From: Microcaldota archaeon
Lineage (GTDB): Archaea > Micrarchaeota > Micrarchaeia > Micrarchaeales > CABMGC01
Assembly (NCBI GenBank): GCA_028867335.1
Contig: JAGWGN010000009.1
Span: 1-40,187, forward strand
Reading direction: 5' to 3'
Length of the DNA stretch: 40,187 nt
Shown: in pieces, positions 11,999 through 36,362 of the stretch
Position numbering within the stretch: position 1 is the stretch's first letter
How the letters are laid out: every line of letters begins with the position of its first letter
Notes under the pieces: generated by a model
Databases searched by the model: none
What the model saw: only the letters and a program-made list of their open reading frames with translations
What the model was told of the DNA's origin: nothing
Translations under genes and position numbers: made by a program

Positions 11999-12652
11999 TT
12001 ATTTCAGATATTTACGGATAATTTTCGCCTGGGCTTCGCGTTCATCAGCATCAGCAGCAGCATCAGCAGCATAAGCAGCAGCAGCATAAGCAGCATGAGC
12101 AACATAAGCAGCATGAGCAACATAAGCAGCATGAGCAACATAAGCAGCATGAGCAGCATAAGCAGCATCAGCAGCAGCATCAGCAGCATAAGCAGCAGCA
12201 GCATAAGCAGCATGAGCAACATAAGCAGCATCAGCAGCATAAGCAGCAGCAACAGCAGCAGCATCATAAGCAGCATCAGTAGCAGCATAAGCAGTAGCAG
12301 CATATTTTTTAAGAGCTTTGAGCGTTATCTTACCTTGCGCATACCGCCGACAGGCGTTGATGCACTCGCGTGGTCCCTTGTCATTTGGGTGTTTGGCCTC
12401 AAAATGCTTCAGCACTCTGGCGACCATATCCGCGCACATAGCAACGCGCAGCTTTGGTTTGTCGGGCATAGCCGCATGCAGCGCCCACATCATGTCCTGT
12501 ACGCCGTTCGATTCTAGGATATGCAGCAGGTTTATCGGCTTATCCTCTGGATAGTCCGGGGGCAAGGACTTGAGCAGTGTGGCCCACCCAGAAGCGCACG
12601 GGCTATGCTCGCGTAACTTTGCGAGTGTGGTAATGAGGCGTGTTTTTGTCAT
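11999..12652 (-). CDS. Imm5-like protein with Ala-rich helical repeats
   Basis: 217 residues. The N-terminus (LAKLREHSPCASGWATLLKS) and the following segment resemble Imm5-like putative immunity proteins, which occur in phages and bacteria followed by Ala-rich repeats. From about 118 to 205 the protein is built of AAYAADAA and AYVAHA blocks, encoded by near-uniform GCT/GCA codons. The predicted form is a long helix or helical solenoid. The C-terminus EREAQAKIIRKYLK is charged. The true function in phages is unknown; 'immunity' is a family label only. The start has GGAG upstream. Confidence 0.65.
   Translation of the reverse strand: MTKTRLITTLAKLREHSPCASGWATLLKSLPPDYPEDKPINLLHILESNGVQDMMWALHAAMPDKPKLRVAMCADMVARVLKHFEAKHPNDKGPRECINACRRYAQGKITLKALKKYAATAYAATDAAYDAAAVAAAYAADAAYVAHAAYAAAAYAADAAADAAYAAHAAYVAHAAYVAHAAYVAHAAYAAAAYAADAAADADEREAQAKIIRKYLK
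12092..12163 (-). repeat. 18-bp tandem repeat, four copies
   Basis: The unit AGCATGAGCAACATAAGC (plus-strand view) is repeated exactly three times (12092-12145), and a fourth copy has one mismatch. It encodes the AYVAHA block. The wider region about 12040-12303 is a trinucleotide-like AGCAGCATA tract. Perfect copies imply recent expansion. Confidence 0.9.
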
Positions 12653-13281
12653 GATTGGCTCCTCAATGCTTCCAGTTGTTCAATCTTGCGCTGCATTTCT
12701 ACAAGGAAATCGCGCACGCCGGTCTCGAGTTCCGATATGGCATCGTCATCGCGCTCGATGCGCTGGACGAATAGCATAAGGTTGCCCGGCATCCGGTTAT
12801 CGTAGCTCACGAAATCGCACCACTTGCGGCCTGAGCAGGCGAGCTGCCACATGATCTGCTGGTAATATTTGCCCGGTACTTTGCCGCTCAGCAGCGTTTC
12901 GATATGCGTTGCTGTGTTGGGGCATTTTAGCTCCAGCAGGCCGTCCTCAGCGATCAGCCCATCTGGCGATGCATGCGTTCCCGGTATCTCTGGATGCGTG
13001 AACATCCCGCACTCAGAGACCTCGACACCGCGCAGGAATGCATAGGCATCACGCGCCTCAGGCTCTACCTCGATACCGCGCTGCATGGCGGCATTCGTGT
13101 AGCCCTCCTGTGCCATGCCAGTCATGCGCTCGGCAATCAGCTGCGCCATGACGTTGTAGCGCGAAGCTCCGTAACCGGACTTGGTGCGCGCCAGTGCATC
13201 GGCTATCTGCGATGCACCGAGACTGCCGCAGCGGAGCTTGAACCATTCATCGCTGCGCTGGCTGACTTGGATATGGCTCAT
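12649..13281 (-). CDS. YqaJ/lambda-type exonuclease (recombinase partner)
   Basis: 210 residues with a good ribosome site (AGGAG) before ATG 13281. The N-terminus (QRSDEWFKLRCGSLGAS), RGIEVEPEARDAY (about 68-80), SPDGL with Asp107, and LELKCP with Glu117 and Lys119 make up the YqaJ/lambda exonuclease fold with its D-ExK metal site. The usual reaction is 5'-to-3' digestion of one strand of double-stranded DNA ends, leaving single strands for the annealing protein encoded at 13535-14257. Length is normal for the family. It overlaps the downstream gene by four bases. Confidence 0.9.
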   Translation of the reverse strand: MSHIQVSQRSDEWFKLRCGSLGASQIADALARTKSGYGASRYNVMAQLIAERMTGMAQEGYTNAAMQRGIEVEPEARDAYAFLRGVEVSECGMFTHPEIPGTHASPDGLIAEDGLLELKCPNTATHIETLLSGKVPGKYYQQIMWQLACSGRKWCDFVSYDNRMPGNLMLFVQRIERDDDAISELETGVRDFLVEMQRKIEQLEALRSQS

Positions 13282-13289
13282 GGTTTCTC

Positions 13290-13538
13290 CTAGAACGGGA
13301 TGGAATCTGTAAATTCCGGCTTCGCTTCAGAGCGCGCTTCAGACTTCGGCGCCGGCGCGCGCTCCTGAGGCAAGCTAACCCTCAGGCTAAGAAATGGCCC
13401 TTTCTGGCCGTGTTTCTGCCAGCCAGCTAGCCGGTACTCAATGCCGTTCACCGTGAGCTTGCCCTGATAATCCGGCTGATTGTCTTTGGTCTTGCGGTCA
13501 TTCTTGAATAGGATGCCGCTCATGTCATAATCGCTCAT
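13290..13538 (-). CDS. Single-stranded-DNA-binding-like small protein
   Basis: 82 residues between the annealing protein and the exonuclease. The first 60 residues look like a small OB-like beta protein (SGILFKNDRKTKDNQPDYQG, then RLAGWQKHG). A Pro/Ala/Glu-rich linker follows, and the C-terminus is EFTDSIPF. An acidic tail ending in IPF resembles the tip by which bacterial SSB recruits partners. I infer a ssDNA-binding or accessory role in phage recombination. It overlaps the upstream gene by four bases. Confidence 0.7.
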   Translation of the reverse strand: MSDYDMSGILFKNDRKTKDNQPDYQGKLTVNGIEYRLAGWQKHGQKGPFLSLRVSLPQERAPAPKSEARSEAKPEFTDSIPF

Positions 13539-14257
13539 TTCGATTTCCTCTTGGTTTCGATAGCCTTTACCATATCAGGATACGCCTGCGCCGCTATATC
13601 CTCAAGCCGCTCAACCTTCGCCCATTTCAGGAACGCGGCCTCGCTGCTCCCGGTTTCATCCAGCAGCGCCTTTAGATTAAGCGCCTGATCCTGAGTGATG
13701 CGCGGCAGGTTATTGCCTGCGGCGTTACCGCCGTCGTCATCCTCGCCTATCGCGATGTTGAATATCATCTTGAGCAGGTAGCGCATACCATAGCTCATGG
13801 CCGAGCCGGTGGCGTGCGTTTTTGTCATTACATCGCCACCCTTCGCGCCTTTGCCGTCCGCGGGCATGTCCACGTGATAGGTGCGGCTGAATCCTCCGCG
13901 ATGCGATACATAGCACTGCACGCGCACCGCCTGGTCGAGAGTCGTTTCACCAGTATCAAAACTGAGCGCGAATCCGTGGGTTGTATAAATAGGGCGCACC
14001 ACGCGGTCGAGTGCTGCATAGCTGGCGTATTTGCTCCGCGTCTGCGGATTGCTGGCATCTGCCACGATGCGGCGCAATTCCGCCTGCACCGCAGACATGG
14101 CAGCATTAAATTCGGACTCGCCAAGCTTCGCGTCCATGCGTTCCTTCATATCCAATAGCTTCTGCATCTTGTCAACATCAACCGCCGGGTCAGACGCGGC
14201 CCGCGCTATGATGGCTAGAATGCTCGGCTCATTTTCAACCTGTACGATAGCGTTCAT
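13535..14257 (-). CDS. erf: ERF-family single-strand annealing protein
   Basis: 240 residues with GGAG nine bases before ATG 14257. The sequence LGESEFNAAMSAVQAEL, YASYAALDRVVRPIYTTHGF and THATGSAMSYGMRYLLKMIF matches the ERF superfamily. These proteins anneal complementary single strands and help circularise phage genomes after entry. An acidic, Gly-rich segment (GEDDDGGNAAGNN, about 170-185) separates the core from a helical C-terminal domain. With the exonuclease at 12649 it forms a two-component recombination system, which fits a terminally redundant genome. Confidence 0.9.
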   Translation of the reverse strand: MNAIVQVENEPSILAIIARAASDPAVDVDKMQKLLDMKERMDAKLGESEFNAAMSAVQAELRRIVADASNPQTRSKYASYAALDRVVRPIYTTHGFALSFDTGETTLDQAVRVQCYVSHRGGFSRTYHVDMPADGKGAKGGDVMTKTHATGSAMSYGMRYLLKMIFNIAIGEDDDGGNAAGNNLPRITQDQALNLKALLDETGSSEAAFLKWAKVERLEDIAAQAYPDMVKAIETKRKSK

Positions 14258-14266
14258 TCGTTTCTC

Positions 14267-14950
14267 CTATTCAATCAATCCAATTTCTTTAAGGTCTTTC
14301 TCACCGACTATCTTACAGCGGAACACGCGGAATTTGCCATCGTTGCCGAGAGGAATCGCCGCGATATCCTGGGCCGTGAACTCGGCTATCAATATCCGAT
14401 AGCCGTATTGCCACTGATGCATACACCACGGCAGCGTCGCGAGATTGATGCCCGCAGCGCATTGTATATTCTCGTCTGTCGAGGCATCGGCAACCTCGTA
14501 GGATTTGCCAATCTCGTAGGTGATGCCGCCGTTGAACGGCGCTAATCCGTCGGGTTTCACTAGTTTATAGGCGCAGATATTGCCCGGCTGATCTCGGAGC
14601 ATGAGCAGCGGGTCAGTTTTGTGAGGATTGTAACCGATGGCGCCGGACAGCTGGGCGCTGGACAGGTCGGCGCCGTACAGGTTAGCGCCGTACAGGTCAG
14701 CGCCGGACAGGTTGGCGCCGTACAGGTTAGCGCCGTACAGGTTAGCGCCGGACAGGTTAGCGCCGGACAGGTTAGCGCCGTACAGGTTAGCGCCGGACAG
14801 GTTAGCGCCGGACAGGTTAGCGCCGGACAGGTTAGCGCCGGACAGGTCAACGCCGAATTTGATTGCGGCCTCCACGCATAATCTTAGGTTCTCTGTTTCT
14901 AGAGAAAATAACACTGTGCCACTGAAGCGATGTTTGATTTCAAATTTCAT
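14267..14950 (-). CDS. Pentapeptide-repeat protein
   Basis: 227 residues with AAGGAG before ATG 14950. Residues about 34-103 are 14 pentapeptide units A(N/D)L(S/Y)G, which fold as a right-handed quadrilateral beta-helix. In known members this can mimic double-stranded DNA and bind gyrase, but many have no known target. The C-terminal 120 residues form a separate domain ([20 protein letters not shown]), seen in phage proteins of unknown role. It sits directly upstream of erf in the same operon. DNA mimicry is only a possibility here. Confidence 0.85.
14640..14849 (-). repeat. 15-bp tandem repeat, 14 units
   Basis: The unit is AGCGCCGKACAGGTT in plus-strand view, with K (G or T) the only position that varies through most of the array. 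It decides Ser (TCC) or Tyr (TAC) in each pentapeptide. The first three units and the last are more divergent. Uniform codons show recent homogenisation or expansion. Confidence 0.9.
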
Positions 14951-15285
14951 GCGTAATCTCCTTCCAATATCCTATATTCGATTTCGTTCACAAGCTCAGG
15001 CGGCAGCGCGTCCGTGATATTGATGCCCAGCACCTCAATACGCATATCAGAAATATACCGCCCCTCGGCTGGCTGGTCGCGTGTCGCGGGGATATCTGAG
15101 CCGCAGATCGTGCCGTACACGTCAGCTACCATCCATGCGTGTGGGTTTATTGGGCCGTTTAGGCAAAGTCCAATCTCAACATCGACCGCGAGCGGTTTGC
15201 GCGCTGGCGTCGTTACGCACTCCGTAACGGCATCGACGGCGCGGGAATGATATTGCAGCATATCAACGGAATCGGCTAAGCACAT
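14947..15285 (-). CDS. Hypothetical early protein
   Basis: 112 residues. The start at 15285 lies seven bases after AAGGAG; the earlier ATG at 15291 is too close to it. The sequence is mixed alpha/beta ([20 protein letters not shown], then [20 protein letters not shown]). I recognise no family or motif. It overlaps the next gene in the operon as ATGA. Confidence 0.65.
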
Positions 15286-15287
15286 GG

Positions 15288-15596
15288 TCATTCTCCTTTT
15301 GATATTGAGGTGGCCGATTGTTGGAGTTCTTTTAATTGCTGCTCTAGTTTATTGGCACGAATGTATTCCTCATACCACCTCTTGCCCTGCGATTCCATCT
15401 CGGCATCGGCGGCCTTTTTGTTATCATCTAGTGCCTTGCGCTGGGCTGGTGATTCGTCTGCGATCACCTGAAATTCTAATGGTAAACCATACGCGTCCAC
15501 GCAACCAGCAAGAGCCGCCACTATCCCAGTGAACGGCGAGCTAAATGTAGTAAACTCCGTTCCATATCCGATTCTAATATAACGAGTATCTTTCAT
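15288..15596 (-). CDS. Hypothetical early protein, first gene of the leftward block
   Basis: 102 residues. ATG 15596 has AGGAGC eight bases upstream; the longer frame to 15617 would include this site and is rejected. The N-terminal half is beta-rich (YIRIGYGTEFTTFSSPFTG). The C-terminal half is a charged helix that may form a coiled coil (about 55-95). It is first behind the leftward promoter and palindromes at 15667-15741, so it is the gene most directly controlled by them. Function unknown. Confidence 0.65.
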   Translation of the reverse strand: MKDTRYIRIGYGTEFTTFSSPFTGIVAALAGCVDAYGLPLEFQVIADESPAQRKALDDNKKAADAEMESQGKRWYEEYIRANKLEQQLKELQQSATSISKGE

Positions 15597-15666
15597 GGTA
15601 TTGCTCCTGTTTTGCATGCCCTAATAATAGCCCAAAATCATCCCATTTCTACTACCGTTCGTCGGA

Positions 15667-15681
15667 TTAGACTGAGTCTAA
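15667..15681. promoter_or_regulatory. 15-bp palindrome downstream of leftward promoter
   Basis: TTAGACT-G-AGTCTAA is a perfect inverted repeat with 7-bp arms around one base. It lies just downstream (leftward) of the predicted leftward start site, a position where a bound protein would block early elongation. I see no second copy. Confidence 0.5.
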
Positions 15682-15693
15682 ATGGCGGGGTCT

Positions 15694-15722
15694 TATATAC
15701 GCTAAAGCGTATATTCCGCCAA
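15694..15722 (-). promoter_or_regulatory. Predicted leftward early promoter
   Basis: On the minus strand, TTGGCG (15717-15722) and TATATA (15694-15699) are 17 bases apart. The 20-bp palindrome 15695-15714 occupies the spacer and overlaps the -10 box. Transcription would start near 15687 and read the recombination operon. Confidence 0.55.
15695..15714. promoter_or_regulatory. Operator-like palindrome, site 1
   Basis: ATATACGCT-AA-AGCGTATAT has 9-bp perfect arms around two bases. It overlaps the leftward promoter, so binding should repress it. It matches site 2 (15722-15741) at 17 of 20 positions and the site at 23225-23238 at 13 of 14 core positions. Confidence 0.65.
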
Positions 15723-15741
15723 TATACGCTATACGGTATAT
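15722..15741. promoter_or_regulatory. Operator-like palindrome, site 2
   Basis: ATATACGCTATACGGTATAT matches site 1 at 17 of 20 positions. The outer arms AATATAC/GTATATT pair perfectly, but the inner bases do not. The centres of sites 1 and 2 are 27 bp apart, about 2.6 helical turns. It begins at the last base of the leftward -35 box. Confidence 0.6.
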
Positions 15742-15743
15742 TC

Positions 15744-15771
15744 GTGTTACATTACTGGCCAGTAGTGACAC
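15744..15771. promoter_or_regulatory. Long inverted repeat of unrelated sequence
   Basis: TACTGGCCAGTA (15753-15764) is a perfect 12-bp palindrome. It extends outward with one mismatch as CAT...GTG, and with a two-base bulge to GTGT...ACAC at 15744 and 15771. Its sequence differs from the ATATACGCT sites, so a different protein would bind it, or it forms a cruciform. Confidence 0.5.
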
Positions 15772-15793: not shown

Positions 15794-15821
15794 TTGCAAA
15801 CGGCTAATGGTAAGCTACAAT
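15794..15821 (+). promoter_or_regulatory. Predicted rightward early promoter
   Basis: TTGCAA (15794-15799), 16 bases, TACAAT (15816-15821). It would transcribe the genes from 15859 onward. The palindromes at 15722-15771 lie upstream, where they could activate or repress. Confidence 0.5.
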
Positions 15822-15858: not shown

Positions 15859-16089
15859 ATGAGTAAATTAGACCGTAGCGAATCTTGTTACTCAGAATGT
15901 GGTGACCGCAGACGACACCCAGAGTACCATCGCACCAAGACCAATGAGCTATATGCACATTTTAGGGATGGCAGTGTTTATCGCGTGGAGGAACAGCCGC
16001 AACATACCGGTAGCCTTTTCTGCTGTCAGGGCAAAAGACGACCAGCAGCGTTAATCTTCCACCGCATCAATGGAGGAAGTCAGGGATGA
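15859..16089 (+). CDS. Hypothetical small early protein, first of the rightward block
   Basis: 76 residues from ATG 15859 with TGAGGA nine bases upstream; the TTG at 15844 is rejected because it includes that site. The protein is basic and has Cys at about 10 and 14 and a CC pair near 54-55 (GSLFCCQGKRRPAALIF), but no known motif. As the first gene behind the rightward promoter it is a candidate early regulator, with no helix-turn-helix visible. It overlaps the next gene as ATGA. Confidence 0.6.
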   Translation: MSKLDRSESCYSECGDRRRHPEYHRTKTNELYAHFRDGSVYRVEEQPQHTGSLFCCQGKRRPAALIFHRINGGSQG

Positions 16090-16610
16090 CTGACGACCCC
16101 CAGCGAGGTCGCGCAGGCTCTGCGGAGCGCCGCAGCGTCGGGCAGTTATATAGACGAGCCAATGAGGATTCGTGCGTGCTGACAGTTTGCCCCATCAGTT
16201 TTAAGGATGCGAATGCCTTTGTTGCGATGCACCACCGGCACCACAAACCAGTGCAAGGCCATAAATTTTCTATAGCGGTGACAGATGGAGAGCGGGTGCG
16301 CGGAGTTGCTATCATCGGGCGACCCGTGGCTCGCCATGCGGATGATGGCGCGACCCTAGAAGTGAACCGGCTCTGCACGGATGGAGCGCGCAACGCTTGC
16401 TCGATGATGTATGCGGCAGCGTGGCGAGCGGCTAAGGCCCTTGGATATAGGCGGCTCATAACCTACACGCTCCCCGAGGAAGGTGGTGCAAGCCTGCGGG
16501 CCGCAGGGTGGAAGTGCATTGGCGAAGCTGGTGGGGGTTCATGGAAGCGCGCAGCTCGTGACAGAGCAGACGCACATCCGCTCCAGGTGAAGCTGCGGTG
16601 GGAAGCTTAG
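16086..16610 (+). CDS. XF1762-family, acetyltransferase-like phage protein
   Basis: 174 residues. From about 35 onward (ISFKDANAFVAMHHRHHKPV, GHKFSIAVTDGERVRGVAII, GRPVARHADDGATLEVNRLC, then CSMMYAAAWRAAKALGYRRL) it matches the XF1762 family common in phages. The layout recalls a GNAT acetyltransferase fold: an acceptor-like helix, then a GY-RLITYTL beta strand and a C-terminal GW loop. The substrate is unknown. The first 30 residues are low in conserved features, so the true start might be later, although the ATGA overlap supports 16086. Confidence 0.8.
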   Translation: MTDDPQRGRAGSAERRSVGQLYRRANEDSCVLTVCPISFKDANAFVAMHHRHHKPVQGHKFSIAVTDGERVRGVAIIGRPVARHADDGATLEVNRLCTDGARNACSMMYAAAWRAAKALGYRRLITYTLPEEGGASLRAAGWKCIGEAGGGSWKRAARDRADAHPLQVKLRWEA

Positions 16611-22447: not shown

Positions 22448-22628
22448 TATCGGCAAATTTTTCGATACGTTCCCAAACGCAGTCAAGGCCATATCGCAGA
22501 TTGACTTGGAGAAAAGCATCTACCTGCCAACGCCGGAGAGCAAATTAGAGCGCATGAAACTCACTACATACCGCTATCTGATGGCGCTTGAACAGATGCT
22601 TATTGTGACAAATAATCGAGACTTATGA
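22434..22628 (+). CDS. Small hypothetical protein
   Basis: 64 residues, starting within the previous gene (MQTYDIGKFFDTFPNAVKAI) and ending over the start of the Q-like gene as ATGA. It looks helical throughout, with no recognised motif. The overlaps on both sides indicate a translated operon member. Confidence 0.65.
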   Translation: MQTYDIGKFFDTFPNAVKAISQIDLEKSIYLPTPESKLERMKLTTYRYLMALEQMLIVTNNRDL

Positions 22629-23080
22629 ACAAGTCCATAGAGAATGTAACAGGATGGGATGATGAGATCAGGATACTACGGCGATGGGCGCGCTGGTGCG
22701 ATAATTCCAACCACAGCGTCATCATGCGATTCTGCGGCCTAAGTGCTGCTGGTAGCCCACCAACGCTAATGCCTCTAGGCGCGCCGGATGAAGATGCTGT
22801 TACGGGTTACGCAAAGGAACACCGGCTACCGGATGCTGTAAGCCCTGAAGTTGATATGTTCATGGCGTCTCTGATAGCGTTGCATCCGAGTGTGTATAAG
22901 GCGCTTCTTCTGAAATACCGCCGTATCGTGGATGGCCAGCATTATCTTTATCGAAGCGAGCGCGCACTTTCAGGGATCCTGTATGATCTGGCGCCGCGCT
23001 ATGCATGGCCGAAGCTCATTCGAGACTGTGAATTAGGCTATGGGATGCTGCGGCGTTATATGACCGCAGCCAAGACTTGA
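22625..23080 (+). CDS. Antiterminator-Q-like protein (late regulator candidate)
   Basis: 151 residues. The N-terminus IRILRRWARWCDNSNHSVIM, then EVDMFMASLIALHPSVYKAL and LLKYRRIVDGQHYLYRSERA, echoes the order of phage 21/82-type Q proteins: a WxxW segment, a helical MAxL-LHxxL-xxY region and a C-terminal helix pair. The gene is the last of the middle block, and a consensus promoter begins at its stop codon, as Q lies just before pR' in lambdoid phages. Q proteins let RNA polymerase ignore terminators and so switch on late genes. The similarity is faint by eye, and no DNA-binding motif is certain. Confidence 0.5.
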   Translation: MNKSIENVTGWDDEIRILRRWARWCDNSNHSVIMRFCGLSAAGSPPTLMPLGAPDEDAVTGYAKEHRLPDAVSPEVDMFMASLIALHPSVYKALLLKYRRIVDGQHYLYRSERALSGILYDLAPRYAWPKLIRDCELGYGMLRRYMTAAKT

Positions 23081-23105
23081 CAACAGCCACGGATTTTAGT
23101 ATAAT
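23077..23105 (+). promoter_or_regulatory. Consensus late promoter
   Basis: TTGACA (23077-23082), 17 bases, TATAAT (23100-23105): a perfect sigma70-type promoter overlapping the end of the Q-like gene. Transcription would start near 23112 and give a leader of about 135 bases before ATG 23247. It is the only strong plus-strand promoter seen ahead of the 27.6-kb late block. Confidence 0.85.
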
Positions 23106-23118
23106 TCGACAATCGCCA

Positions 23119-23136
23119 GAGGTGTGTCCGCACCTC
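23119..23136 (+). terminator. Leader hairpin, possible attenuator or tR'-like terminator
   Basis: GAGGTG (23119-23124), loop TGTCCG, CACCTC (23131-23136), followed by ATTACCTTATTT. The stem starts about seven bases into the predicted transcript. The trailing tract is only partly T-rich, so it would terminate weakly or act as a pause or processing site. Confidence 0.45.
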
Positions 23137-23146
23137 ATTACCTTAT

Positions 23147-23219
23147 TTGCCCCCCAGCCTGAGAGATAGGATGCTTATGCACCGCTCCGGGACATCAGTG
23201 CGTGCGCGAGAGGGGGCAA
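23147..23219 (+). ncRNA. Structured late leader RNA element
   Basis: TTGCCCCC (23147-23154) and GGGGGCAA (23212-23219) pair perfectly across 57 bases that contain smaller self-complementary segments (GCAC...GTGC). The closed element ends just before the palindrome 23225-23238 and the ribosome site. It matches no RNA family I know. It could be a Q-related leader, an RNA regulator or a packaging site on the DNA. Confidence 0.4.
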
Positions 23220-23224
23220 TCTAT

Positions 23225-23238
23225 TACGCTAGAGCGTA
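23225..23238. promoter_or_regulatory. Operator-like palindrome, site 3, at the first late gene
   Basis: TACGCT-AG-AGCGTA has 6-bp perfect arms and matches the core of site 1 (15698-15711) at 13 of 14 positions. It directly abuts the ribosome site GGAG and ATG 23247. The two-base centre is too short for an RNA loop, so DNA binding is the better reading. Confidence 0.55.
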
Positions 23239-23246
23239 GGAGCTGA

Positions 23247-24680
23247 ATGTACGAAGAAAAGTTCCAAGCCGCGGCTACGCTTGTCAAGGAGAGCCGCGAC
23301 CGCGAAGGCTTGGACGCCCTGCTTCCGCTGATTGACGAGAACCCGGAAGATTTCAGGCTTTACGCTGTAATAGGCGAGGCCTTTATGAATAGCCGGATGT
23401 TCGATCCAGCGGAAAAGGCGCTGGTTATGGCGAATGACCTGCACCACGATAAATTCATTCAGATACGATTAGCCGATTGCTATACCTGCCAGCGGAAGTT
23501 TGCGAAAGCCAAGCCGATGCTGGATAAGCTCAAGGCTCAGTTCATCGGCACTATTGACGCTCCATTATGGGCATGTAGTCAAGCCGAATATCTCTCAGCC
23601 ACGGGTAAATATGACGAGGCTGAAAAGTTATATGCGTGGGTGATACAGGAAGTCCCGCACTGGCCCACGCCTTGGGGTGGCCTTGGTAATCTCAATGCAT
23701 TACAACATCGCTATGAGCGTGCTGTACATTGTTGGGGAATCCATCATCAACTTAGGCCCACATGGCGCACAGCCATAGACCTATGTTATGGTTATGGCAT
23801 AGCTGATAAATGGACAGAGGCTTATGAATTGGGCCGCTGGTCGTATATCACGAAAGAAGGTGATAAGCGGTATCTGGGTCATCCAGAGTGGGATGGCAAA
23901 GACTGTGATGAGGTTTTGGTATGCGCAGACGGCGGTCTTGGTGATCTTCTACAATATTCGCGCTATATAAATCTCATTAAGGGCAACGTCAAGTTATGGG
24001 TGCAGAAACGTCATTATGAAGTGGCGCGGTGCTTGCGATTTGACAAACCGGTCGAGTTAATTGAATCTTACAAGGATGTCGACAAATCAGTCCCGCTTGC
24101 GTGGCTAATGTTCCTGCCGGGCGTTATGGGGATGCCGCGCCCACAAGAGGCGCCCTCGCCGGTGCGGGCAGACTTCGGCACCATCAAGATGCCACAGCCT
24201 GCAATAGCCATAAGCTGGTATGGAGATCTGAAACACGCGAACGACCATCTACGGTCGACGAGGCTGGCACAATGGGCGAGATTGATATTAAAGTTCCCCC
24301 AAGTTCATTGGTTCACGGTGAACCCGGACAAGAAAGCGGCGAAGGAGATTGCTTCGACCCGATTGCCTGTTACGCAGTATTGCACTTCGTTACGGGATGC
24401 GTGCCGTTATCTTGCGACTGCGGACGCTTATGTCGGTGTGGATACGGGCCATGCCCACGTCGCTGCAACAGCGGGCAAGCCATCTTTATGCCTGTTAGTG
24501 AATTGGGTGGACAATCGCTGGACAGCGGCAGGAAACCGGACTAATCTGTATCCAGATTTTCTGCTCTATCGCGGATATGAATACCCGCGCCTCAAAGATG
24601 CGATAGACGAAATGGCCGAAGACTTGGAAAACATACTTGTCACGAGAAACAACCAAGGCGCTCAGGCGATTGCTGGCTGA
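23247..24680 (+). CDS. TPR plus glycosyltransferase-like protein
   Basis: 477 residues with AGGAG before ATG 23247. The first 200 residues are helical pairs typical of tetratricopeptide repeats (LYAVIGEAFMNSRMFDPAEK, YLSATGKYDEAEKLYAWVIQ). The C-terminal half (about 220-450) resembles a GT9/GT-B glycosyltransferase fold: LVCADGGLGDLLQYSRYI near the start, and YVGVDTGHAHVAATAGKPSL (about 394-413) as the nucleotide-sugar side. Such proteins may glycosylate proteins or glycans. It is the first late gene, ahead of the terminase genes, an unusual place. The target is unknown. Confidence 0.75.
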   Translation: MYEEKFQAAATLVKESRDREGLDALLPLIDENPEDFRLYAVIGEAFMNSRMFDPAEKALVMANDLHHDKFIQIRLADCYTCQRKFAKAKPMLDKLKAQFIGTIDAPLWACSQAEYLSATGKYDEAEKLYAWVIQEVPHWPTPWGGLGNLNALQHRYERAVHCWGIHHQLRPTWRTAIDLCYGYGIADKWTEAYELGRWSYITKEGDKRYLGHPEWDGKDCDEVLVCADGGLGDLLQYSRYINLIKGNVKLWVQKRHYEVARCLRFDKPVELIESYKDVDKSVPLAWLMFLPGVMGMPRPQEAPSPVRADFGTIKMPQPAIAISWYGDLKHANDHLRSTRLAQWARLILKFPQVHWFTVNPDKKAAKEIASTRLPVTQYCTSLRDACRYLATADAYVGVDTGHAHVAATAGKPSLCLLVNWVDNRWTAAGNRTNLYPDFLLYRGYEYPRLKDAIDEMAEDLENILVTRNNQGAQAIAG

Positions 24681-35985: not shown

Positions 35986-36362
35986 AATTTATTCCATTTT
36001 GGGATGTTGACAAGCACTGGGACTTCTGCGCGCCGCTGCTAAAGAAAGCGGTCGATTTACAGACCGGTTGGGATTTGCCATCAATCAAGAACGAGATAAT
36101 GGCCGGTCGGATGCACTTATGGGCGACAGATAACGCTGCATTTGTGACCCAGTTGCAGACATTCCCGCTGGCGCGTGTATGCGTCATCTTCCTATGTGGA
36201 GGGATTGGCGTCGATGAGTGGGCAAACGAAGTCACAGCCACGCTGGCAAATTACGCGAAAGCGCATGGATGCTCGTCAATGGTCATAGTGGGCCGCGATG
36301 GATGGGAAAAGCGGGCGCCAGGATTTGTTAGGACTGATTCAGTTTTCAGGAGAGCATTATGA
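35958..36362 (+). CDS. GNAT-fold-like internal or assembly protein
   Basis: 134 residues from ATG 35958. FIPFWDVDKHWDFCAPLLKK, IMAGRMHLWATDNAAFVTQL, FLCGGIGVDEWANEVTATLA and SSMVIVGRDGWEKRAPGFVR follow the order of GNAT-like phage proteins, such as the T7 gp13 region, where the enzyme site may be lost. These are encoded between nozzle and ejection-protein genes. I infer a virion-assembly role. The acetyl-CoA loop (Q/RxxGxG/A) is not evident. Confidence 0.7.
   Translation: MADTERPVVKFIPFWDVDKHWDFCAPLLKKAVDLQTGWDLPSIKNEIMAGRMHLWATDNAAFVTQLQTFPLARVCVIFLCGGIGVDEWANEVTATLANYAKAHGCSSMVIVGRDGWEKRAPGFVRTDSVFRRAL

Follow-up and report, generated by a model that had tools for sequence, protein, structure and literature searches.

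Does the short palindrome that abuts the first late gene of this phage form a single switch with a pair of similar palindromes in its early region, and which protein would bind them? The window, by which we mean the whole 40,187-nucleotide stretch of DNA analyzed here, has a 77-bp terminal direct repeat, so the contig is probably a complete phage genome. It holds three related sites, none with an assigned strand: O1 (15696–15713) and O2 (15723–15740) between divergent early genes, and O3 (23225–23238) ahead of the structural genes. An earlier note on this DNA had read the three together as a shared early-late switch.

Results

The Core Match at the First Late Gene

O3, TACGCTAGAGCGTA, is a solitary, partial match to the operator core and lies directly before the GGAG of the gene that starts at 23247. 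It is identical to the early core TACGCTAAAGCGTA (15698–15711) at 13 of 14 positions, both are exact matches to TACGCTNNAGCGTA, and they are 7,527 bp apart; the GGAG (23239–23242) follows O3 without a gap, then come CTGA and the ATG at 23247. The earlier note was correct about this match and its coordinates, and also in saying that the site touches the ribosome site of the first late gene, 7.5 kb away. The coincidence of the O3 core with O1 is real as a sequence fact. The genome-wide motif scan against background that the note had suggested gave a divided answer: exact matches to TACGCTNNAGCGTA number two in the window, against 0.002 expected there by a first-order Markov estimate, and O1 and O3 are the only two in the 960,597-base assembly, whereas with up to three mismatches the window contains 17 matches against 15.4 expected, which is background. 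Similarly, the statement that no other palindromic copy is present holds for up to one mismatch and fails at two, where the early partner at 15725 and a site at 36252 (TACGCGAAAGCGCA) appear in the window.

The surroundings of O3 bear on what it might do. It sits in the approximately 6% of the window that is outside our gene list, its arms are 6 bp long where those of O1 are 9 bp, and nothing similar was found at 27 bp on either side of it. A perfect sigma-70 promoter on the plus strand (TTGACA-17-TATAAT, 12/12; 23077–23105) stands upstream of the terminase-portal-capsid block. O3 is off the promoter itself, at about +113 relative to its inferred start, so that a bound protein would be limited to a roadblock or an effect on translation. 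The first gene of the structural block (23247–24680, plus strand) encodes TPR repeats with a weak glycosyltransferase-9 match, and its product has a 28% partial match on another contig of the assembly (C9). The promoter heads the structural block and overlaps the stop codon of the preceding gene (22625–23080). By eye only, that gene's 151-aa product looks like a Q-type antiterminator, whose gene in lambdoid late control stands just upstream of the late promoter, and neither library nor search backs this likeness; the product has no family match, matches in phages only at E of 4 or more, and gives a poor structure model (pLDDT 40.7).

O3 might also act as RNA. A hairpin, UACGC-UAGA-GCGUA, would then form by the ribosome site in the leader (23106–23246, plus strand) and affect translation of the 23247 gene. 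Its five pairs do form at O3 in the predicted leader fold, but that fold is no stabler than those of shuffled sequences (z = −0.77), a palindrome with 6-bp arms and a gap of 2 should by our estimate occur about ten times in 40 kb, and the searches yielded no close relative in which covariation could be followed. We regard the hairpin as a very improbable explanation.

The Early Pair and Its Resemblance to HipB Operators

O1, TATACGCTAAAGCGTATA, has the structure ATATACGCT AA AGCGTATAT and is a perfect match to the HipB-type operator TATACGCTNNAGCGTATA; O2, TATACGCTATACGGTATA, has two mismatches to TATACGCTNNAGCGTATA and is exactly 27 bp from O1. Both are 18-bp palindromes with TATxC outer arms, set in tandem at a fixed spacing, as is found for operators of the HipB type. 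For HipB of E. coli the consensus is TATCCN8GGATA; by our count, the two operators of the published E. coli O1O2 oligonucleotide start 28 bp apart (PMC3376134). The E. coli hipBA operators thus share the 18-bp palindrome, the TATxC outer arms, and the fixed tandem spacing with the phage pair, which differs from them in its TATACG arms, in a spacing of 27 rather than 28 bp, and in lying on a phage with no hipBA beside it.

O1 and O2 occupy the gap between leftward recombination genes and a rightward Mom-like gene. The leftward genes (12649–15596, minus strand, taking the ATG that ends at 15596 as the start of the first) encode two unknown proteins, a pentapeptide protein, an Erf-type annealing protein, an SSB-like protein, and a YqaJ-type exonuclease. 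To the right, a 76-aa ORF overlaps the Mom-like DNA modification gene (phrog_1384, 4e-43; together 15859–16610, plus strand), an arrangement resembling com-mom of phage Mu; the small ORF contains several cysteines. Three candidate promoters, predicted by a consensus scan, surround the pair: TTGCAA-16-TACAAT (15794–15821, plus strand, 9/12) for the small ORF and the Mom-like gene, TAGAAA-16-TATTAT (15624–15651, minus strand) for the recombination block, and a second leftward candidate (15721–15750, 9/12) that overlaps O2. Two more palindromes, TTAGACTGAGTCTAA (15667–15681) and TACTGGCCAGTA (15753–15764), flank O1 and O2.

The same tandem recurs in bacteria, next to hipBA. In bacterial genomes the strict tandem was found in 19 stretches, some of them from close relatives (three Hyphomicrobium, two Bradyrhizobium), against about 2 expected by a uniform-base estimate. 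An ORF of the HipB family is present in 15 of the 19; in 14 it directly adjoins the sites, and its own neighbor is mostly a HipA kinase gene. Operons of the TATACGCT operator type were found in Hyphomicrobium, Bradyrhizobium, and Rheinheimera, among others. Pfam identified HTH_3 in all four HipB-like ORFs checked and HipA_C with Couple_hipA in both HipA-like neighbors checked, and the HipB profile used recovers a solved HipB chain at 2e-18. These hipBA loci have up to four successive sites, the further ones mostly at 27, 54, and 81 bp; the exceptions are two related loci (L179 and L185), where the distances are 53 and 79 bp rather than 54 and 81. Among alphaproteobacteria, 6 of 385 genomes have a loose tandem, five of them with HipB beside it (four of five when the centre genome, which was picked for its hit, is left out). 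Among gammaproteobacteria, where the gap was left free from 3 to 22, there were matches in 4 of 369 genomes, with HipB beside the sites in three; all five matches had a gap of 11, and a reversed control pattern matched in two of the 369 genomes.

There are counter-cases. Four of the 19 stretches have no HipB (L172, L173, L181, L186); in another (L174) HipB is 1.3 kb off, behind transposase-like ORFs; and one loose match (L321) falls within two long overlapping ORFs and has only a weak HipB match (0.0016). One tandem without HipB in a gammaproteobacterial genome (L340, 1501–1543) stands just before genes that by eye are exonuclease-like and YqaJ-like, perhaps in a prophage. Because the tandem adjoins hipBA in bacteria and has the same 18-bp form as the E. 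coli HipB sites, we assign O1 and O2 to the HipB type of operator. This also supports the earlier reading of the early double site as an operator pair, whose sequence and 27-bp spacing recur both at bacterial hipBA promoters and, as described below, in viral contigs.

The Pair Without Its Operon

The pair in the window is not upstream of hipBA: it is a HipB-type site without its operon, and the window has no hipBA locus. No HTH_3 match was found in the phage contig and no HipB-like ORF in the window, nor did our searches bring out a phage-encoded regulator of the HipB/HTH_3 family, several of the genes having no family match. Neither HipB nor HipA has a match in the assembly, which is 82.7% complete and possibly not that of the host. 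The organism whose bin holds the probably complete phage contig has a small genome, and no HipA was found in it.

Viral contigs carry the same arrangement. When the pattern was O1, a spacer of 3 to 22 free bases, and then ATACGCT, five viral contigs matched, two of which (L164 and L165) share one sequence, and in all five the gap was 11, the spacing of the window. For a single exact site, 120 viral contigs were listed. In 13 of them, which represent about seven independent families as judged by repeated sequence, a second site with one or two mismatches lies 27 bp away. At other distances within 16–60 bp these 120 contigs have one more such partner, at 57, and three that carry four mismatches, at 18, 21, and 60. 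The scan for single sites is mostly chance, and it is the spacing test that made it informative: a single preferred distance of 27 bp is not produced by chance.

A HipB gene seldom accompanies these viral sites. Seventeen of the 18 viral records with strict or nearly strict sites, several of which are fragments, have no HipB-like protein. Among the listed matches to a looser tandem, 121 viral loci divide into 7 with hipB adjoining, 2 with weak matches elsewhere, and 112 with none in the fetched stretch, counts that cover the matches listed and are lower bounds, the stretches being incomplete as well. No protein family was found in more than two of the groups when 16 viral loci and the window were searched for a common regulator gene. 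The inner letters of the loose tandem vary widely, and 33 of 91 distinct cores among the matches listed have at most 3 of 8 inner letters unlike the window type; the loose-tandem sites probably belong to several HipB specificities. Among those seen, then, viral sequences appear mostly to carry the HipB-type operator without the operon.

An operator pair with no gene to control could serve as a decoy for the antitoxin, its replicating copies holding host HipB or HipBA on DNA. Either direction of effect is conceivable: HipB would be shielded from degradation and the HipA kinase kept inactive, or hipBA would be derepressed. Consistent with a decoy, E. coli operator DNA slows degradation of HipB by Lon (PMC3376134), and a HipA-related kinase system defends against phages (PMC13092281). 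The placement of 77 distinct viral tandem sites without hipBA, among the matches listed, points both ways. They avoid coding sequence, 30 of 77 lying inside ORFs of at least 100 aa as against 77% of random positions, and 47 have no candidate start within 100 bp, as a decoy would allow; but the remaining 30 (39%, against 26% at random) do have such a start, a modest excess that favors regulation.

Named Phages with HipB-Type Pairs

Queried by BLAST, two tandem sites had hits in phages of Caulobacter, Dinoroseobacter, Roseobacter, and Ruegeria, and most of the E. coli operator aligned with sequence in five Pectobacterium phage records. Short matches turned up in Klebsiella, Escherichia, and other phages as well. 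The E-values are weak (0.06 and 1e-6 for Caulobacter, 4e-5 to 3 for the roseophages, 0.02 to 0.9 for Pectobacterium) and the spacing of a query favors its like, so that the claim of pairs on named phages rests on the palindromes in the eight records read. Six of these (CcrBL9, RB23, vBDshPR2C, vB_RpoP-V13, DS-1410Ws-06, and RD-1410Ws-07) each have two palindromes with one to three mismatches to TATACGCTNNAGCGTATA, 27 bp apart. The other two, the Pectobacterium Certrevirus phages POP15 and DU_PP_I, have two exact copies of TATCCN8GGATA 28 bp apart (L325 and L326, 1502–1547). Few as they are, the named phages with enterobacterial hosts carry the E. coli type and those with alphaproteobacterial hosts the TATACG type, a correspondence drawn from the phage sites and not from the hosts' own operators. 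A HipB-like protein is absent from six of the eight; CcrBL9 and RB23 have weak XRE-like hits. The roseophages among the carriers include virulent phages. A search of plasmids produced no hit at E 0.01, which says little, since the majority of the hits to phages would have fallen outside that cutoff too.

The locations of these pairs again divide between the two readings. In the Caulobacter giant phages CcrBL9 and RB23 the pair lies between tRNA genes in a tRNA array (L300, 3001–3045; L301, 3001–3044), as might be expected of a decoy. In DS-1410Ws-06 and RD-1410Ws-07 it occupies an intergenic stretch, in vBDshPR2C it follows the last annotated gene, and in V13 it overlaps the end of that gene. 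Against a decoy, the pair in POP15 and DU_PP_I is at a gene start, running up to the annotated start codon of a small gene (110 aa), and the pair in the window lies among candidate promoters. On balance we consider a decoy, the main rival to regulation by host HipB, an unlikely role for the pair of the window.

The Strength of O3

How strong is O3 as a member of this operator family? We scored it, as the 18-mer 23223–23240, on a matrix built from 64 reference sites. O1 scores 29.5 bits, O2 20.9, and O3 11.4, that is, 9.5 bits below O2 and 18 below O1. The lowest of the 64 reference sites has 14.8 bits (12.7 with its own locus left out), and O3 ranks below them all; of 100 simulated 40-kb sequences, 24 contain a score at least as high, with 0.32 such scores per sequence. 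The limits of the reference set favor the consensus: sites were gathered with at most five mismatches, the way in which the anchors were chosen fixed an A at position 2, and rows out of register with the 27-bp spacing were excluded. Before the matrix was made, duplicates of other loci were dropped (L177, which repeats L185, as well as L085 and L090), along with L182 2120, which scores 14.8 bits, and four poor candidates that score less than 2. Also dropped were the sites of L179 and L185 that fall off the register; two of these, at L185, a hipBA locus, score 10.7 bits, below O3.

The weakness lies in the outer positions. Of the 128 reference half-sites, 123 have A at position 2, where the two sides of O3 have T and C; compared with TATACGCTNNAGCGTATA, O3 has lost the outer TATA on both sides, has four mismatches, and is no longer an 18-bp palindrome with TATxC arms. 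Among seven distinct partners with up to four mismatches, the A is kept in 12 of 14 half-sites, and the remaining two, both in one site, have T. A core with T at both outer positions can therefore exist, but next to a strong partner. In one viral family, sites reduced to the core, with both outer A/T lost, do stand as partners at 27 bp; they make up 5 of 125 core matches over 2.07 Mb of selected loci.

These results bear on the proposal that an unrecognised phage protein binds all three sites as an early-late switch. Phages often encode their own repressors, the identity of the O3 core with that of O1 has a rarity (0.002 expected) that is hard to dismiss as chance, and the location of O3 against a ribosome site is not unique: operators abut the ribosome site or the start codon in the viral contigs L164 and L165 and in the two Pectobacterium phages as well. 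A late site of such a switch should, however, be about as strong as the early sites and be placed on the late promoter, and O3 is neither: it is the weakest of the three, has no partner, and lies off the promoter. Nor did any of the 18 viral records, six of them at least 40 kb long, have a further core match with up to one mismatch away from its early-type sites (the reversed control pattern gave one match, in one record). The regulator search, which brought no HTH_3 protein in the contig and no HipB-like ORF in the window, argues against a phage protein too, as does the presence of the same operator form beside hipBA in bacteria. We therefore do not uphold the inclusion of O3 in a shared early-late switch, and judge a phage protein acting on all three sites to be improbable.

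Conservation could be followed only a short way. Searches of the viral and phage collections (viral_contigs, phages) gave no relative of the late 23247 gene, and of ten pattern stretches from the genome collection (genome_contigs) none was confirmed. A search with the Erf gene gave 31 viral loci, in none of which the core occurs exactly or with one mismatch; relatives of the portal are distant (five viral loci at 28%–34%). A second phage fragment in the same assembly (C19, L161; 5.9 kb) has a portal 47% identical to that of the window and was of no use on the operator question. It is doubtful that O3 is a functional operator; most likely the site is weak or coincidental, and any second control of the late block through it is hypothetical.

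Discussion

With moderate confidence, and on the strength of the sequence comparisons, we favor the view that O1 and O2 form a HipB-type operator through which binding of host HipB(A) would tune the early region, with O3 weak or coincidental. The pair has the arrangement that stands before hipBA operons in alpha- and gammaproteobacteria. As the phage codes for no recognisable HipB, the most likely binder would be the host's own HipB, alone or in the HipBA complex. Once bound, HipB would repress or tune the putative divergent early promoters, toward the recombination block on the left and the Mom-like gene on the right, and early phage transcription would thus depend on the level of the host antitoxin. 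Two points weigh against binding by HipB: several phage genes lack a family match, and one of them could encode a regulator of another fold; and the hosts of some viral carriers may lack hipBA.

A wider reading, which we offer tentatively and with something less than even confidence, is that unrelated phages each bear a solitary HipB operator pair, of the type that the lineage of the host would lead one to expect, as an interface to the host persistence toxin-antitoxin system. The pair would be either a sensor of antitoxin level that times the early genes or a decoy that checks the HipA kinase, and O3 would be a third, weak site extending the control to the late block. The types in question are TATACG at 27 bp, in Caulobacter and roseobacter phages and many environmental contigs, and TATCC at 28 bp, in the Pectobacterium phages. 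HipBA is the classic persistence toxin-antitoxin system, and whether systems of this kind bear on phage infection at all is an open question. A phage that has the antitoxin operator and lacks the antitoxin would give a direct handle on that question, and named laboratory pairs exist, for example Caulobacter and its phages.

The early operators of lambdoid phages are paired palindromes between divergent early promoters, where they bind a phage repressor. O1 and O2 are likewise paired palindromes between what appear to be divergent early promoters; unlike the lambdoid case, no repressor gene was found in the window, and the operator sequence and spacing are of the HipB type. The open-access literature searched gave no report of HipB operators on phages. 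A related proposal concerns cyanophage CL131, which has a gene for a putative antitoxin with a HipB domain and for which a link to the HipAB dormancy of the host has likewise been proposed; the same study suggests that phage-encoded antitoxins might keep hosts from dormancy (PMC6293099). There, however, the phage is proposed to bring an antitoxin-like protein, which the authors' own checks made doubtful, and the passages concerned do not discuss operators (PMC6293099). In Caulobacter and phage phiCbK, XRE regulators of host and phage act on overlapping sets of sites, and that phage brings a protein, TgrL (PMC10688885); the phage of the window brings only the site.

Caulobacter also offers a bacterial comparison. 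In front of hipBA1 and hipBA2 of Caulobacter crescentus stands a series of identical inverted repeats, spaced much as in E. coli (PMC7029023). Caulobacter phages carry the tandem of the window's type, a parallel in arrangement; unlike the repeats of the Caulobacter hipBA loci, the phage copies sit in a tRNA array.
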